Below are positions 15,139-24,137 of a stretch of DNA of 37,822 nt, piece after piece. The stretch is from a virus: IMG/VR virus record IMGVR_UViG_3300042902_000356, positions 1 to 37,822 of that record; one strand, written 5' to 3'. Both the position numbers and the translations under genes were made by a program. Under the pieces are notes generated by a model, which worked only from the letters and a program-made list of their open reading frames with translations, was not told where the DNA came from and made no database searches. Each line of letters starts with the position of its first letter. Position 1 is the first letter of the stretch.

Positions 15139-15657
15139 TTAACGCCCGGCGCTGACAGCGTCGACCGCATCCTTGTACGAACAGCTGTACTTCTGCTGAT
15201 ACGCGACGGCCTTGTTGTGCATCGCCATCGAGCCAGCGTCCACGACGTAACCTTCCGGCGCTGCGAACTCGGCAGCAGGAGCTTTATCCGCATCCTCGCC
15301 ACCCAGCACGCCGCCCAGGTCGATCTGTTTGGGCAGCGCGGCCATGAAGTCGCGGAACCAGGTGAGCGCCGGCTTCTTGATCGTGGCAGCCGTGTCGCCC
15401 TCGCCGGCGGAGAACTCGAACTCCATCGGCTCGCGCGACAGCTGCAGCATGAAGTCGACGGCACCCTCGGCCTGGGCCGGGGTCAGGCGGCCGGCGTCGA
15501 TGGCCTCGGTGATGTTGGCGCTGAACTCGGCGCGCAGGCGGCTCTCGCGTTCGGTCTGGAGCTGCTGCTGCAGCGTGGTCTGCTCGGCCGCAAACTCAGC
15601 CTTGGCCTCGGCACGCGCCTCTTCGCGGGCGCGCTTCAAATCTTCTTCGGTGAGCAT
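15139..15657 (-). CDS. Internal scaffold protein, Mu gpZ-like, from an in-frame start
   Basis: An ATG inside the protease gene at 15657 is preceded by GGGAG (15666-15670) with an 8-base spacer, an excellent ribosome site in the middle of a reading frame. It would give 172 residues beginning LTEEDLKRAREEARAEAKAEF, a strongly charged helical scaffold, then the C-terminal capsid-interaction region. In Mu, Z is made the same way from within I. The position of the site, exactly at the protease/scaffold domain boundary, supports it. Confidence 0.78.
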   Translation of the reverse strand: MLTEEDLKRAREEARAEAKAEFAAEQTTLQQQLQTERESRLRAEFSANITEAIDAGRLTPAQAEGAVDFMLQLSREPMEFEFSAGEGDTAATIKKPALTWFRDFMAALPKQIDLGGVLGGEDADKAPAAEFAAPEGYVVDAGSMAMHNKAVAYQQKYSCSYKDAVDAVSAGR

Positions 15658-16305
15658 GGATACGTCTCCCTGTTGGGTGGGTGCGGAGAAAGAAGGGGAA
15701 GCGGGAACATCTTCGGCGCGCTGCTCGGCGGCAGCGGTGACCAGGTCATCCACATCCCACTCGGGCATTACTCGGTCGGCCTCTTCAGCGCCGAACTTGG
15801 CGATCAGGAATTCACGCAGGCGGCGCATCATGCGCGCCAGGGTGGAGGTGGCGCGCCAGTCCACGGAGTAATCGTGCGCCTCGGTCTCTGCGCTGAACTG
15901 CACCGGCGCCAGGCCATCGACTGCCGGCGGCTCGGCGCCCAGCCAGGCTATGTGACCCAGCTTCCAGCCCTTCGGGCTCGGTACCAGGCGCACGCTGCGC
16001 TCGAACAGGCGGCCATCCTTGATCAGCTTCTCGAACTGCGGCTCGACGTTCTTGCTCTTGACGTAGAGCACATCGCCCTCGCGCTTCACCTCGGCCGACT
16101 GGCCGTAGGCGAAGGGCGAATAGAGTTCCTTGTGGGTGATGACGTGCGGCGCGGGGTGGTCCGCGCTGTGGTTGGCGACGACCTGATCCAGCTCATCGTG
16201 CGTCCAGACCTTTTCGCGGCCGAGAGAATCCTTCTGGGGGCCGGCCTTGAAGATCGGAACCCAGTCCTGAAGACCTTTGAAATCGTGCTGTGTGCGCTTG
16301 CTCAT
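15139..16305 (-). CDS. Prohead protease/scaffold fusion, Mu gpI-like
   Basis: A 388-residue Mu I protein. Residues 1-165 form the protease half: GLQDWVPIFKAGPQKDSLGR, VVANHSADHPAPHVITHKEL, VKSKNVEPQFEKLIKDGRLF, and the conserved SVRLVPSPKGWKLGHIAWLG with GAEPPAVDGL. Residues about 215-280 form a charged coiled-coil scaffold, and the C-terminal tail is typical of Mu I. It cleaves scaffold and probably capsid N-termini. This is the first gene of the leftward late operon. The ATG at 16305 has no Shine-Dalgarno sequence, and a GTG at 16314 is also in frame; see the promoter element at 16341-16360. Confidence 0.9.
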   Translation of the reverse strand: MSKRTQHDFKGLQDWVPIFKAGPQKDSLGREKVWTHDELDQVVANHSADHPAPHVITHKELYSPFAYGQSAEVKREGDVLYVKSKNVEPQFEKLIKDGRLFERSVRLVPSPKGWKLGHIAWLGAEPPAVDGLAPVQFSAETEAHDYSVDWRATSTLARMMRRLREFLIAKFGAEEADRVMPEWDVDDLVTAAAEQRAEDVPASPSFSAPTQQGDVSMLTEEDLKRAREEARAEAKAEFAAEQTTLQQQLQTERESRLRAEFSANITEAIDAGRLTPAQAEGAVDFMLQLSREPMEFEFSAGEGDTAATIKKPALTWFRDFMAALPKQIDLGGVLGGEDADKAPAAEFAAPEGYVVDAGSMAMHNKAVAYQQKYSCSYKDAVDAVSAGR

Positions 16306-16340
16306 GAAGCGCACTATGCGGGAGGGGGAGAAAAACGATC

Positions 16341-16516: not shown

Positions 16517-16798
16517 TTATATGAATACCCTGCCATCGCTAACCTCAAGACCTCGCTTGACCAGATCACGTTCTGACAAATTGCGGAATCTGCATCGGCA
16601 GTCTCCATGCAATGGTGGGCGCTTCACTTTCCAAATAGGATCGTCGAAGCGAAAAACCTTTGCGTGCAACCTCCGGCATTCTTCGCAGGTGCATCCATCA
16701 ATAACGGAAAGCCACTGCCAGTAGGGTGCGCGGTGCGTTTCCTTCATGAACCTGGCAAACCGCTCATCCATATATCTGCGGTGCTCTTCGTCTGACAC
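16517..16798 (-). CDS. Stand-alone gpF/SPP1-gp7-like C-terminal domain protein
   Basis: A 93-residue protein that resembles the C-terminal domain of the phage head morphogenesis (Mu F/SPP1 gp7) family. It has CTCEECRRLHAKVF, then a DDPIW motif, then PPLHGDCRCRFR. Cys and His residues suggest a small metal-binding fold. The full-length gpF of this phage is at the far right and shares LHGKVF, DDPIW and NCRCR. Start GTG with AAGGTG eight bases upstream. It is the last gene of the repressor cluster, an unexpected place for a head domain. It may be a remnant or a domain reused for interference with head assembly of other phages. Confidence 0.65.
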   Translation of the reverse strand: MSDEEHRRYMDERFARFMKETHRAPYWQWLSVIDGCTCEECRRLHAKVFRFDDPIWKVKRPPLHGDCRCRFRNLSERDLVKRGLEVSDGRVFI

Positions 16799-16809
16799 GC
16801 TGACGCACC

Positions 16810-17052
16810 TTACGGCTCAGCGAGCCGCTTAATGCCACCGAGGTGCTTCAGGATTGACTTCAGATCATCGATGGCCAGCTTCACTGCATCGATATCGACG
16901 ATAACTCTCTCAGTCGTGTCGATGGGAGCATCCGGGTTTCGTCTGACAGGATTGGAGTATGGTCGTCCCTCTATTGTTGCTCGGAGGGCCTTATACCGCT
17001 CATCTAAAGCGGCGAGTTCTATCTCCATCTTGGCTTTCTTGAATATCGGCAT
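16810..17052 (-). CDS. Hypothetical small helical protein of the lysogeny cluster
   Basis: An 80-residue protein starting PIFKKAKMEIELAALDERYK with AGAGG eight bases before the ATG at 17052; a longer form up to 17139 is possible but overlaps the upstream gene. It is mostly helical, with IDTTERVIVDIDAVKLAIDD and LKSILKHLGGIKRLAEP segments. Codon use is less GC-biased than in the structural genes, like the rest of this cluster. I recognise no domain. Confidence 0.55.
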   Translation of the reverse strand: MPIFKKAKMEIELAALDERYKALRATIEGRPYSNPVRRNPDAPIDTTERVIVDIDAVKLAIDDLKSILKHLGGIKRLAEP

Positions 17053-17101
17053 CACACCATCCTCTATTACACCCGTCGCCCAACCCACACCACGACCATT
17101 C

Positions 17102-17491
17102 CTAAGCCCTGTCTTGAAGAATGAAGTCGATAAGATCAATTCGTTCCCGATAAATCGCTATCGCTTGCGCCTCTTTCCGGCGGGTTGCTTGCAACCAGTA
17201 GGACGGAAAAATGATGCCGCCAAAGGCAATGCCCCACAGGGTCCAATCTGGCGCCACGATCGACACGCGACCAGACAACAGTCCCCATATCATTAATGCC
17301 AGGCCGCCCAGCATCCATAACAAAGGGATATTAATAACGAATCGAATGCGTGACGCCCATAGCTTCTTGGCGCAGCGCGCGCGCTCAAAAATCAGATCAT
17401 CGGTCTGACAGTGCCACAACTTTTCCTCTGCCGCGTTGATGATGTCTCTCCCAGCAACTTGCTCCACTGGACCGTGAAACTCCTGGTTCAT
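17102..17491 (-). CDS. Two-TM membrane protein with AGRD motif, partner of repressor gene
   Basis: A 129-residue protein starting two bases after the repressor stop. The N-terminus QEFHGPVEQVAGRDIINAAE closely matches the C-terminus of the repressor (QNFHGKVGQAAGRDIVN). Two hydrophobic segments follow: FVINIPLLWMLGGLALMIWG (about residues 51-70) and WTLWGIAFGGIIFPSYWL (about 83-100). The C-terminal 30 residues are cytoplasmic-type and charged. The layout suggests an inner membrane protein that recognises, or is recognised by, the same partner as the repressor tail. A superinfection exclusion or signalling role is possible but not shown. Confidence 0.65.
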   Translation of the reverse strand: MNQEFHGPVEQVAGRDIINAAEEKLWHCQTDDLIFERARCAKKLWASRIRFVINIPLLWMLGGLALMIWGLLSGRVSIVAPDWTLWGIAFGGIIFPSYWLQATRRKEAQAIAIYRERIDLIDFILQDRA

Positions 17492-17493
17492 AA

Positions 17494-18009
17494 CTACTCC
17501 TTTTTATTGACGATATCCCTGCCTGCTGCTTGACCAACTTTACCGTGAAAATTCTGCTGCGAGCCGTCAAAGGATGAACTCTGATTTCCTGTTAGAGCTA
17601 GGGCAGCACGCACGAATGATTCGAGAGAATCCACTGATGGGGTGTGCTCGAAGGTATACCCGATCAGCGCCTGCAACTGATCAGGTGAAAACCTTGCCCC
17701 TATCCGCTCCTGCACAGCCAGCACTCGATCTAGGGCTGCCTTCGCCCGCTCTGGGCCGGACATCGCAGCCAGGGCGGCATCCTGCGGGCCGAACTGCCCC
17801 CACCTCACCCCGGTGATGACGTACTGGTAATCGAAGCCGGTTCCGGCTTCCACCAGGGCAGCCAACGCCTCGGCGGGAATTTTGACCCCCTTCTCCCAAG
17901 CAATCACAGACGTTTTTGCAACGCCGCAAATCTCTGCGATCCGCGCATGGCTCAGTTTTAGTCGCTGCCGCTCATCCCTAAATCGCTCGGTTGTTAAATC
18001 GATACCCAT
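17494..18009 (-). CDS. Phage repressor, XRE-type HTH, with C-terminal AGRD motif
   Basis: A 171-residue repressor candidate. Residues about 10-55 form a Cro/C1-type helix-turn-helix (FRDERQRLKLSHARIAEICG, then VAKTSVIAWEKGVKIPAEAL). It lacks the S24 peptidase Ser/Lys domain of lambda-type repressors, so induction would not be by RecA-driven self-cleavage. The middle is helical (AALDRVLAVQERIGARF). The tail carries QNFHGKVGQAAGRDIVN, shared with the next gene. It is transcribed leftward, divergent from the Ner-like gene, in the position of Mu c. The ATG at 18009 has no clear ribosome site, so the transcript may be near-leaderless. Confidence 0.78.
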   Translation of the reverse strand: MGIDLTTERFRDERQRLKLSHARIAEICGVAKTSVIAWEKGVKIPAEALAALVEAGTGFDYQYVITGVRWGQFGPQDAALAAMSGPERAKAALDRVLAVQERIGARFSPDQLQALIGYTFEHTPSVDSLESFVRAALALTGNQSSSFDGSQQNFHGKVGQAAGRDIVNKKE

Positions 18010-18129: not shown

Positions 18130-18405
18130 ATGCAGTACACGCACTGGGCAGACCGAGCTGCCGCCCTATATAAGGCCGGCTCCTCGCCCTCGCAGGTAGC
18201 CCGCGACCTGGGGCTGAAACAGCCCAACTCGGTCAGCCAGGTGCTCCGCGAGGAAATCGCATCGTACAACATTGCGAGCCATGTGTCGGCCATCACCGGC
18301 ATCCCGCTCAGCCAGCTCTTCCCGTCCGGCCGCTACAACAAGCCGCCCAAGGAAAATATGCGGCGCGCCGCAGATTTACCCACCAAGGGGAGGGCCGTGG
18401 CATGA
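18130..18405 (+). CDS. ner: Ner-like winged/HTH DNA-binding protein
   Basis: A 91-residue protein of the Ner/Nlp family, which tunes early transcription after infection. The ADRAAALYKAGSSPSQVARD segment leads into the recognition helix with QPNSVSQVLR, and the GIPLSQLFPSGRYN ending is the family's conserved C-terminal motif. AGGAGG lies eight bases before the ATG. It is the first rightward gene after the operator, the same place as in Mu. The last 20 residues are a basic tail. Its stop overlaps the next start (ATGA). Confidence 0.85.
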   Translation: MQYTHWADRAAALYKAGSSPSQVARDLGLKQPNSVSQVLREEIASYNIASHVSAITGIPLSQLFPSGRYNKPPKENMRRAADLPTKGRAVA

Positions 18406-21315: not shown

Positions 21316-23025
21316 ATGGGACAGCAGCTCAAGCAAATAACCAAAGCGCTGGCACAGGCCGAGCCTGATGAGAACGCGGTGACCGGCCCCAAGAAGCGCA
21401 AGGTCGCCGCACTGGTGGCGGTGATGCGCTACGTGCGTAAGCTGCGCGTCGCGCTGGGCGGCGACAGCCTGGACCCGGCCATCGATATTTTTTCAAGACA
21501 GTTCGCTGACGGCCTGCTGCCGGGGGCCGTTGTCTCCGCCCTGACCGTGCTGCGCCCGAAGAAGGTGGACTGCCCGCACCGCGCGACGCTCTACCGCTGG
21601 GATGAGAAGTACGCCAAGCACCTGCAAGGGCGCGAGGCGGAGGCGGCGCCGCAGCACCAGGGACGGAAGCGCAAAGACTACGGCTGGGAGCTGCGCGCCC
21701 TGGCGCTGTACCACATCCCGAGCAAGCCGACCTCCGGCGCCGTGGCCGAGCAGCTGCGGGACGAAGGGTTCGACAGCGCCACCAACGACCGCGTGCGCCG
21801 CTTCCTTCAGACGATGCCGGCGACGCTCGGCCCGCAGAGCCCGCACCGGGTCGGCAAGCACTACCACGACCTCAACCGTGGCCGCTACGTGCGCCGCAAC
21901 ACCGACTGCCTGGATGTCGGCGAGGTCTACACAATGGACGGCCACACGGTGGACGTCTATCTGGCACACCCGATCTCCGGCGGCATCTGGCGGCCGGAGC
22001 TGACGGTAGTGGAGTGCGTGAAGTCGCGTTTCATACCCGGCTGGTACCTGTCAGAGGCGGAGTCCACGCATAGCTCCATGCTGGCGCTGTCGCACGCCAT
22101 GCTGGGACACGATCACGTCCCGGCCTGGATGCACGTCGACAACGGCTCCGGCTTCAAGGCCAAGGCCATGAGCGATGAGGCAGTCGGATTCTACGCCCGC
22201 TTCTCCATTCAGCCGATGTTCTCGATCCCCGGCAACTCGAAAGGCCGCGGCCACATCGAGCGCCTGTTCCGCACCATCCGTGACAAACACGACAAGCTAT
22301 TCATGGGCGGGATGTTCTACTGCGGCGACGACATGGCACCGGAGATCAACCGCCGCCTGCACGACCAGCTCAAGCAGGGCAAGCGCGCGCTGCCGACCCT
22401 GGCGCAGTACCGCGACTCTCTGGCGCGCTTCCTTGAGCGTTACTGCAACACCAAGCACAGCGCGCACGGGCGCACGCCGGCCGATGTGTGGGACGAGCTG
22501 GAGCGCGTTCCGCTGGAGGTTCCGGCCGACGCCACCGTGCGCGAACGCACCACCCGCACCATCCGCCGCGCCGCCATCGAGCTGCACAAACGCGTGTACA
22601 GCCACACCGACCTGGCGCTCTACAACGACCGTGTGCTGCCGGTGGAGTACTCGATCCACGACGACGCCCATGTGTACGTCTACGACGAACAGGATCGCCT
22701 GGTGTGCGTCGCCGAGCTGGTGACCAAGGCCGACTACCTGCCGGCCTCGCGCCTGGAAGAGCAGCGCCAGCGCCGCAAGGAAGGCCAGCTCAAGCGCCTG
22801 CAGAAGAAGGTGGCCGAGGTGGAGGCGCAGCACGGCAACGCCATCACCCACGACCAGCAGATGGAACAGATCGCCGCGCTCCTGGAGCCGGCGCGCCCGG
22901 CGCCTGCCCTGGAGCAGGCCGAAGGCGAAACCCTGGATTTGCTCTCGCCCCTGTTGCGGGGCCGGGCAAAAGAAAAGGGAGACAGCCCGCTACGGCTGTC
23001 CCCCTTGGATATCGACGGGGAGTAG
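21316..23025 (+). CDS. A: DDE transposase, MuA-like
   Basis: A 569-residue MuA-type transposase catalysing strand transfer for integration and replicative transposition. The N-terminal part contains DNA-end-binding helical domains (LGGDSLDPAIDIFSRQFADG, RATLYRWDEKYAKHL). The catalytic core has D208 in YTMDGHTVDVYL, D275 in WMHVDNGSGFKAK and E315 in GRGHIERLFRT; the 66-residue gap between the Asp residues equals that of MuA (D269/D336). A beta-barrel domain follows (DLALYNDRVLPVEYSIHD), then a Lys/Glu-rich coiled tail for MuB contact. It is shorter than MuA (663 residues), with no internal stop. Confidence 0.95.
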   Translation: MGQQLKQITKALAQAEPDENAVTGPKKRKVAALVAVMRYVRKLRVALGGDSLDPAIDIFSRQFADGLLPGAVVSALTVLRPKKVDCPHRATLYRWDEKYAKHLQGREAEAAPQHQGRKRKDYGWELRALALYHIPSKPTSGAVAEQLRDEGFDSATNDRVRRFLQTMPATLGPQSPHRVGKHYHDLNRGRYVRRNTDCLDVGEVYTMDGHTVDVYLAHPISGGIWRPELTVVECVKSRFIPGWYLSEAESTHSSMLALSHAMLGHDHVPAWMHVDNGSGFKAKAMSDEAVGFYARFSIQPMFSIPGNSKGRGHIERLFRTIRDKHDKLFMGGMFYCGDDMAPEINRRLHDQLKQGKRALPTLAQYRDSLARFLERYCNTKHSAHGRTPADVWDELERVPLEVPADATVRERTTRTIRRAAIELHKRVYSHTDLALYNDRVLPVEYSIHDDAHVYVYDEQDRLVCVAELVTKADYLPASRLEEQRQRRKEGQLKRLQKKVAEVEAQHGNAITHDQQMEQIAALLEPARPAPALEQAEGETLDLLSPLLRGRAKEKGDSPLRLSPLDIDGE

Positions 23026-23066: not shown

Positions 23067-24137
23067 ATGAGCAAACCCGAAGGCATCAACCCGACCGGCG
23101 GCAAGGCCGTCGATCATCGTCTCGCCCTGATGGAGTACCCGACGACCTGGGCGCCGAACTATGACGACGACGACAAGGCCGCCGTGTGCCGCATCATCGA
23201 CTGGATCAACGCTGGCCAGTCCCATGCCCCCGGCTACGCCAACCAGCGCAACCAGACCAAGCTGGCCCGCGCCACCGGGATCGCCCAGGGCACCCTCAAC
23301 CCTATCCTGCTCGGCAAGTACGTCAGCCCGCCCAAGGCGCAGCTCGCCACGCTGCTCGACCACATCGGCCGCGAGGCGGCGCGCGCGTCCAACGTCAAGG
23401 TGCCGTTCGTGCCCACGTCGGTGCACCAGACCGTGGAGTTCGTTTGCAAGCGCGCGCACCAGTACCGCGACGTGGGTATCGTCTCCGGCGAGGTGGGCGT
23501 GGGCAAGACCACGGCGGTGAAACGCTACGCGGATAACACCCCCAACGTCATCCTGGTGGAAGGATCGCCGGATATGAACGCCATCGTTCTGCTGCGCGAG
23601 CTGGTGGACCTCACCGGCGCCGTGGTGCAGAAGTCGAACCGCTACGCCGTGGGCACCAAGTCCGAAATGTTTCGCGCCATCGTCAAGGCGCTGCGCGGCA
23701 CCGACAAGCTGCTGGTGCTCGACGAAGCCGACAAGGTCGCCGACTCCGCCCTGGAGTATGCGCGCCGCATTTCCGACATCGCCGAGATCGGCCTGGTGCT
23801 GGTCGGCACCGAGAAGCTGCGGCCGATGGTCGAAGACCCGCGCGGCAAGCACGGCCAGATCAGTTCCCGCGTCGGGTTCTGGCCGGCGGTGATCAAGTCC
23901 ATCAAGCGCACCGACGCCGTGCTGATCGTGCGCGGCGCCTTCGACGGCCGCGAAGCGCCGGATGAGGAAACCCTGGATGCATTCTGGCAGATGTGCGACG
24001 GCCGCGCCCGCGTACTCGCCAAGTTGGTGCGCAACGTCATCGAGCTGTGCCTCGACAAGGGCCACGACCTGACCCCGCGCCTGGTGTTTGAAGCCGGCCA
24101 GCAGCTCATGGGCCTCAAGCGCCCGAAGGGGGTGTGA
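23067..24137 (+). CDS. B: DNA transposition protein, MuB-like AAA+ ATPase
   Basis: A 356-residue MuB homologue that coats target DNA and activates the transposase. An N-terminal helix-turn-helix region (NQTKLARATGIAQGTLNPIL) is followed by Walker A GEVGVGKTT (K147, T148) and Walker B KLLVLDEAD (D219, E220). A VLVGTEKLRP sensor segment and a C-terminal helical domain complete it. AAGGAG lies nine bases before the ATG. It follows the transposase by 41 bases, the standard A-B order. Confidence 0.95.
   Translation: MSKPEGINPTGGKAVDHRLALMEYPTTWAPNYDDDDKAAVCRIIDWINAGQSHAPGYANQRNQTKLARATGIAQGTLNPILLGKYVSPPKAQLATLLDHIGREAARASNVKVPFVPTSVHQTVEFVCKRAHQYRDVGIVSGEVGVGKTTAVKRYADNTPNVILVEGSPDMNAIVLLRELVDLTGAVVQKSNRYAVGTKSEMFRAIVKALRGTDKLLVLDEADKVADSALEYARRISDIAEIGLVLVGTEKLRPMVEDPRGKHGQISSRVGFWPAVIKSIKRTDAVLIVRGAFDGREAPDEETLDAFWQMCDGRARVLAKLVRNVIELCLDKGHDLTPRLVFEAGQQLMGLKRPKGV

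Follow-up and report, generated by a model that had tools for sequence, protein, structure and literature searches.

The repressor and its membrane partner

The present analysis concerns two adjacent genes of a virus known from the IMG/VR record IMGVR_UViG_3300042902_000356, which was analysed over its whole length of 37,822 bases (hereafter the window), with open reading frames (ORFs) called mechanically. These genes encode the immunity repressor of a Mu-like transposable phage and a small protein predicted to cross the membrane twice, and the same short motif is found near the end of the former and near the start of the latter. The repressor, of the c type (171 aa; 17494..18009, minus strand), carries an N-terminal helix-turn-helix (HTH) domain matching Pfam HTH_3 (6.6e-5) and PHROG transcriptional repressor families. 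In Pfam and PHROG scans, this HTH was the sole domain seen and no S24 peptidase domain was found, in agreement with an earlier reading made from the sequence alone (the sequence-only reading), according to which the repressor has no self-cleavage domain. The C-terminal motif of the repressor, QNFHGKVGQAAGRDIVN, covers residues 152-168 of 171 (17506..17556, minus strand).

The partner (129 aa; 17102..17491, minus strand) begins with its own copy of the motif, QEFHGPVEQVAGRDIIN (residues 3-19 of 129; 17435..17485, minus strand), as identified from the sequence and the AlphaFold 2 (AF2) model. A helical membrane domain follows and matches phrog_17537, a PHROG of unknown function, over residues 22-128 (1.5e-9). 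Both copies lie near the termini, and neither is exactly terminal, which slightly corrects the sequence-only reading: the repressor ends with KKE and the stop codon, and the partner starts with MN. In the AF2 model of the partner, helices span residues 30-52, 55-73, and 82-128. Two hydrophobic helices are predicted to be transmembrane (TM), with approximate edges. The first would correspond to residues 50-72 (17276..17344, minus strand), from hydropathy and AF2, and the second to residues 82-104 (17180..17248, minus strand), from the AF2 helix 82-128 and from hydropathy in the homologues L005 and L006. The description of the neighbour as a two-TM (2TM) protein holds. The two genes are 2 nt apart, and a Shine-Dalgarno-like AAGGAG lies within the last repressor codons (17497..17502, minus strand); its placement suggests that translation of the two genes may be coupled.

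A shared motif at the protein level

The two copies of the motif are identical at 12 of 17 residues, and six of these 12 are encoded by different synonymous codons. Smith-Waterman alignment of the whole repressor with the whole TM protein gives a score of 68, when the best of 20,000 shuffles reaches 56 (p<=5e-5). Among all window ORFs, the repressor is the top scorer against the TM protein, the next one scoring 44. No third copy was found in the six frames of the window. A literature search with the motif letters returned unrelated words only.

As proteins, the two copies of the window are 65% identical. Over 20 aligned codons of this pair, the proportion of synonymous differences (pS) is 0.76 and that of nonsynonymous differences (pN) is 0.24; the pooled values for 31 pairs from different phages, described below, are 0.70 and 0.30. 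The DNA of the window copies has thus diverged to near saturation, with the protein held. Because synonymous sites are saturated, the copies do not come from a recent local DNA duplication. The sequence-only reading had named a local duplication, not conserved in relatives, as the result that would overturn it; for a recent event, this is excluded by the synonymous divergence and by the conservation of the motif in divergent relatives. Chance similarity was likewise rejected from the shuffles, from cross-locus permutation and from control gene pairs. An artefact of local duplication or of composition, which the adjacency of the two copies might have suggested, is scarcely conceivable in view of the pS and pN values of the window, of the 31 pairs from different phages and of the 0/123 control pairs given in the next section. 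The claim of a motif shared by the repressor tail and the start of the adjacent protein is therefore confirmed by the shuffles, by the ranking of window ORFs and by recurrence in relatives.

Paired motifs in other phages

A motif-blind query, an alignment restricted to the first 75 aa of twelve repressors, some with the motif and others without it, was used to scan IMG/VR. From the 80 best loci, 37 non-redundant repressors were obtained, and the last 45 aa of each were aligned to the N-terminal 60 aa of as many as four downstream genes, every other locus providing the null. Eleven of the 37 repressors match a downstream N-terminus at p<0.01, with 0.4 expected, and a twelfth does so at p=0.03. 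In ten of the 11 cases the match is the first downstream gene; in the remaining one (L097) it is the second gene listed. When only immediate neighbours are considered, at a score of 38, the motif is shared in 11/29 pairs that include the repressor, against 0/123 for the other pairs of neighbouring co-directional genes in the same loci (Fisher 2e-9).

Motif types vary between phages (AGRDI, VQVG, GQNIYGNI, and others) and match within each phage. Examples are GSGNVTAGRDV/GWGNVTAGRDV, INVSGNSNRVAGRNY/INVNGDNNRIAGRDY, IGQNIYGNI/VGQNVFGNI, GSVQVGHQSGGQVTV/GTVQAGRIDGSVTV, NNNVQVG/SGNMQVG, and FHGRVAHQVIGDI/FHGDVENAVIGDV. For 31 pairs, the mean score of a repressor with its own partner is 49.8, against 27.3 with the partners of others. 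None of 20,000 permutations reached the observed mean, whether for the whole set, for the AGRD subset or for the non-AGRD subset (p<=5e-5), these p-values being drawn from events that are not fully independent, as some of the pairs are evolutionarily related. The list of 31 also mixes motif-blind and motif-selected loci, and the unbiased figures are 11/37 and 11/29 vs 0/123. Within motif families, own partners score higher than swapped ones (p 0.020, 0.034, 0.0015, and 0.0013), the difference not being significant in a family of three; with one pair taken per motif family, the same holds (p 1.5e-4 and 2.5e-4).

A third protein, for instance a host protease or adaptor, may be imagined as the target of both motifs, since regulation through the C-terminal tail is known for Mu-type repressors (PMC10584840). 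However, with a host target in common, selection would retain one motif, whereas the motif differs between phages and matches within each of them; such an explanation is very improbable. The match within phages and the diversity between them would rather fit co-evolving homotypic interfaces, or copies that are repeatedly renewed.

Relatives of the TM protein itself (42-49% identical to that of the window) occur in a betaproteobacterium (L005/L017), in L006, in Burkholderia aenigmatica (L019), and in Rhodocyclus tenuis (L022/L007). In all these loci, the body of the upstream repressor is very different and its tail carries the same kind of motif. Tails equivalent to that of the window repressor are found in L005, L006, L019, L022, L036, L042, and L137. 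In random Burkholderiales genomes, the TM family or phrog_17537 was found only in the genome used as centre, and the family is therefore rare in this order. Behind a motif-tailed repressor, two Pandoraea loci (L036 and L023) have partners of another kind, namely a distinct 2TM protein and a coiled-coil/TM protein, and in five three-gene loci (L006, L019, L022, L040, and L042) the motif is common to the repressor, to an ORF6C-like helical protein and to a TM protein. Across phages, partners are thus of the 2TM, ORF6C-like, ORF6C+TM, or short-domain type, and most of those outside the window have ORF6C-like domains and not purely membrane ones. Their genes are co-directional with the repressor gene and mostly coupled to it or overlapping. 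In the AF2 model of the ORF6C-like partner the helical domain folds well, its best match in the PDB being weak (SaPI2 Stl complex, E=2.2), and in some partners this domain also weakly matches PHROG anti-repressor families.

These features bear on the proposal of the sequence-only reading that the motif may be an input tying lysogeny to a membrane or cytoplasmic signal. In such a case the membrane protein would sense an envelope signal and pull the repressor off DNA by membrane sequestration, as an anti-repressor would. A membrane partner is indeed linked to the repressor by the motif, and the weak anti-repressor matches of some ORF6C-like domains point the same way. Nevertheless, the partner belongs to the repressor operon and is thus expected in every stable lysogen, and most partners elsewhere lack a pure membrane domain, which makes this proposal distinctly unlikely.

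Several further observations were made at these loci. At L005:4684-5175 and L017:6974-7465, the TM gene is directly followed, within the repressor operon, by a gene whose product, a superinfection immunity protein, has a zinc-ribbon tail (PF14373 1e-12; phrog_1039). Another membrane protein, with a match to phrog_11791, none in Pfam, and a SLATT-like appearance, is encoded downstream of the motif genes at L006:7337-7879 and L022:7105-7644. In many tails (L005, L006, L019, L040, L078, L081, L082, L089, and L099), the motif is followed by a short basic segment, such as KGRK, GRRKK or GRKKKRES. In partners of otherwise unrelated appearance (L115, L130, L142, and L151, as well as L054), the motif is followed, at the C-terminus, by a recurrent small domain (about 45 aa; ..RxxVLDFMxREFxTxxVIELxPxQLxRLRRYVEVVL). 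Finally, the ORF6C partner L019:2124-2759 (residues 28-52) and its homologues in L040-L042 and L022 have a second RHIM/BASS-like stretch, SIQIGAINGGQNIIGQTGDIHLQ, right after the AGRDI motif, and this stretch includes an exact IQIG core.

Cultured phages and a single-chain form

Paired motifs are also present in cultured phages. In B3, the repressor B3ORF18 has the tail ISVTGDGNRTAGRDFHERKE and the 2TM protein B3ORF20 starts with NIEVTGSNNIVAGRDFIEN; the pair of KS10 is GSGITQVGSRVRI/GFGIIQVAGDLSI. The same layout with different motifs occurs in Ps59, KS5, Carl1, and AP3, where the partner consists of the motif, an ORF6C-like domain and a TM segment. No relative of the TM protein of the window or of L019 was detected by tblastn against cultured phages; the B3 partner was found via its repressor, the similarity of the 2TM domains being only weak (hhalign E 2.4e-4, probability 44%). 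The repressors of Ps60, U11, JBD25, D14A, Fc22, and Fc02 have no tail, and no motif partner accompanies them. In lysogens of the B3-like Fc02, the repressor and its downstream gene are transcribed together (PMC9936078). Curvibacter phage TJ1, a close relative by its transposase, has a CI-like repressor that was judged, by reading its sequence, to be of the S24 type, and has no partner.

A covalent form of the association is provided by phrog_17822, the first ~70 residues of which align to these repressors and the last 165 to the ORF6C-like partner. A member of this family, found in Pseudomonas phage Gregale (OR683403), is a CI-like repressor made of a single chain of 267 aa, in which the HTH is joined through a GGNFAGFVGTAQTGSTVHMIN linker to an ORF6C-like domain; the linker is rich in G, N, and V (SISGGNFAGFVGTAQTGSTVHMIN). 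The occurrence of two separate proteins of one phage as a fusion in another is a classical sign that they act together. As the motif-sharing pair of one phage corresponds to a single chain in another, the repressor and the ORF6C partner would do so.

The fusion may also be read in terms of a bipartite repressor devoid of signalling, the motif joining an HTH subunit to an oligomerisation or co-repressor subunit that replaces the missing C-terminal domain, with the TM variant anchoring the complex. In addition to the single chain of Gregale and D3112-like CI proteins, the co-directional and mostly coupled or overlapping partner genes agree with this, as does TJ1, where an S24-type repressor goes without partner. 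Such a bipartite repressor leaves unexplained, however, the variety of partners (2TM, ORF6C, ORF6C+TM, small domains) and the presence of two different tag-sharing partners in one phage, and we consider it rather unlikely.

Composition and resemblance to amyloid motifs

In AF2 models the motif stretches are left unstructured and the rest folds, as seen for residues 1-16 of the window TM protein (predicted local distance difference test, pLDDT, <50) and residues 1-38 of the ORF6C partner. Relative to motif-less tails, those with the motif contain more G, N, and V and less L and E. A core of the type found in the RIP homotypic interaction motif (RHIM), [IV]Q[IVLC]G, is present in 4/31 tails (L054, L115, L130, and L151), where shuffles give 0.23 (p=0.001), and in 2/31 partner N-termini; motif-less tails have none (0/24). 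Some tails are similar to BASS3, an amyloid peptide of Frankia belonging to the bacterial amyloid signalling sequences (BASS; peptide from PMC8086366), with z up to 4.6. For the window motif, an amyloid assignment would follow from gene layout and motif class rather than from a match.

Surroundings in the phage genome

The window has the hallmarks of a Mu-like transposable phage, with a MuA-type transposase, MuB, divergent repressor and Ner genes, and a Mu I-like protease. The Ner-like regulator (18130..18405, plus strand; phrog_769 2.8e-8) is divergent from the repressor. Transposase A (21316..23025, plus strand; phrog_310 1.5e-95, PF09299) has Curvibacter TJ1 and Burkholderia KS10 as its closest relatives among named phages, and it is followed by a MuB-like transposition protein (23067..24137, plus strand; phrog_296 3.2e-57). 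The Mu I-type protease was located at 15139-16314 by profile scan. After the TM gene, and overlapping its 3′ end, an ORF of about 109 aa (16810-17139, minus strand) encodes a helical product of no family. A 93-aa ORF (16517-16798, minus strand), located between the protease gene and the repressor region, covers the C-terminal part only of the Mu F-like domain (PF04233) and has no full-length F protein next to it.

A possible role for the paired motifs

The sequence-only reading had left the choice between a common binding partner and a direct association of the two proteins. Association is supported because the motif is conserved in divergent relatives, co-varies between the two proteins, is absent from control pairs, and because HTH and partner domain are fused in a D3112-like phage; of the two options, the evidence favours a direct, self-type (homotypic) contact over a third party. 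We therefore consider, with a probability of about 0.55, that the motif acts as a short tag for homotypic interaction, which couples the immunity repressor to its partner and is built like BASS and RHIM-like pairs but without a NOD-like receptor (NLR).

In such a mechanism, one copy of the tag on the unstructured C-terminal tail of the repressor and another on the unstructured N-terminus of a partner from the same operon would bind each other. In the phage studied here, the repressor would nucleate or hold a 2TM protein of the inner membrane; in relatives, it would be coupled to ORF6C-like helical domains, to ORF6C+TM proteins or to small domains. Since the tag occurs where an S24 or oligomerisation domain is lacking, it probably also lets the repressor self-assemble, besides recruiting the partner. 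The chemistry is likely to be a stacking of beta-strands of the RHIM/BASS type, possibly with a cross-beta structure, which would give a switch-like and sequence-specific co-assembly. As for the output, the membrane version would most likely be an effector of the exclusion or abortive type, expressed during lysogeny, the clustering of which would be set by the state of the repressor. We favour such an effector, or a membrane-anchored co-repressor, over an anti-repressor because the partner lies in the repressor operon and is expected in every lysogen. The superinfection immunity gene that follows the TM gene in L005/L017 fits an effector without proving it. With regard to direction, an output, in which repressor status gates a membrane effector, or simple oligomerisation of the repressor could equally well apply as the input of a membrane signal.

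A number of results weigh against a homotypic amyloid-like tag. The window AGRDI motif has no [IV]Q[IVLC]G tetrad and was thus rejected as a RHIM member, RHIM-type cores are confined to a minority of tails, and a profile of the VQVG-type motif matched no RHIM structure in the PDB. The likeness to BASS3 is patchy, z exceeding 3 in 4/31 tails for one peptide. The TM partner matches no Pfam family and, at E<=0.1, no PADLOC entry, hence no known defence family; its AF2 model (pLDDT 70, predicted template modelling score 0.45) has no PDB match better than E=0.6. In Komp_PAO1_1 (L080, 1860-2393), the repressor tail SFHGPVGQAAQGDIKNG resembles the window motif and the next gene has none; a partner may be encoded elsewhere or may have been lost. 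Finally, binding and amyloid character are both proposed on the basis of sequence and gene layout.

A stronger version may be proposed, more tentatively and with some doubt. Temperate phages would use signalling amyloids, the repressor and its partner co-polymerising through matched RHIM/BASS-like motifs in a self-templating and possibly heritable manner, thereby setting lysogeny or a membrane death or exclusion response. Should such co-polymerisation occur, a virus would harbour amyloid signalling that involves no NLR. Whether bacteria have signalling amyloids outside NLR pathways has been raised as an open question (PMC7889193). The paired motifs are concrete candidates for these, and some belong to cultured phages of P. 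aeruginosa (B3 and Ps59) and of Burkholderia (KS5, AP3, and KS10). They may also explain how phage repressors lacking S24 oligomerise and are regulated, and they connect the repressor that maintains prophage immunity with membrane proteins whose function is unknown. In the literature searched, which left most subscription journals and preprints outside, no report ties amyloid or prion-like motifs to phage repressors or lysogeny, and the repressor-partner motif pairing appears to be undescribed.

Comparison with known systems

Like a lambda-type CI with S24, the window repressor is an HTH protein divergent from a Cro/Ner gene; it differs by the lack of S24, in place of which stands the motif tail. 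The Mu c repressor is likewise a Mu-type repressor without self-cleavage and with a regulatory C-terminal end, which in that case bears a ClpX determinant (PMC10584840); a paired motif in the neighbouring gene is not described in that paper. The D3112-like CI (phrog_17822, Gregale) has the same HTH and ORF6C-like parts and a G/N/V-rich linker, but in one chain instead of two genes. With RHIM and the fungal PP motif, the likeness is limited to the four tails listed above, in which [IV]Q[IVLC]G is flanked by G or N; this core is missing from the window motif, and no profile match to RHIM structures was obtained.

The gene layout is that of BASS pairs. BASS 1-10 (Dyrka et al., 2020, as described in PMC7889193 and PMC8086366) are motifs of 20-40 aa found at the C- and N-termini of proteins from adjacent or overlapping genes. 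An NLR with the N-terminal motif is paired with a BELL, TIR or CHAT effector carrying the C-terminal one, mainly in multicellular bacteria and in some archaea (PMC7889193; PMC8086366). The phage pairs share with BASS a short motif at the C-terminus and N-terminus of adjacent gene products, many motif families matched within a pair and diverse between pairs, and a partner that is often a helical membrane domain. Unlike BASS, the C-terminal motif is carried by a phage repressor, and the phages are those of Proteobacteria. Pfam and PHROG scans showed HTH repressors and 2TM or ORF6C-like partners, and no NACHT or NB-ARC domain. Since the NLR member is absent and a cross-beta amyloid character is only inferred, the repressor and its partner are not classified here as a BASS pair; on present evidence, they would nonetheless work like one.
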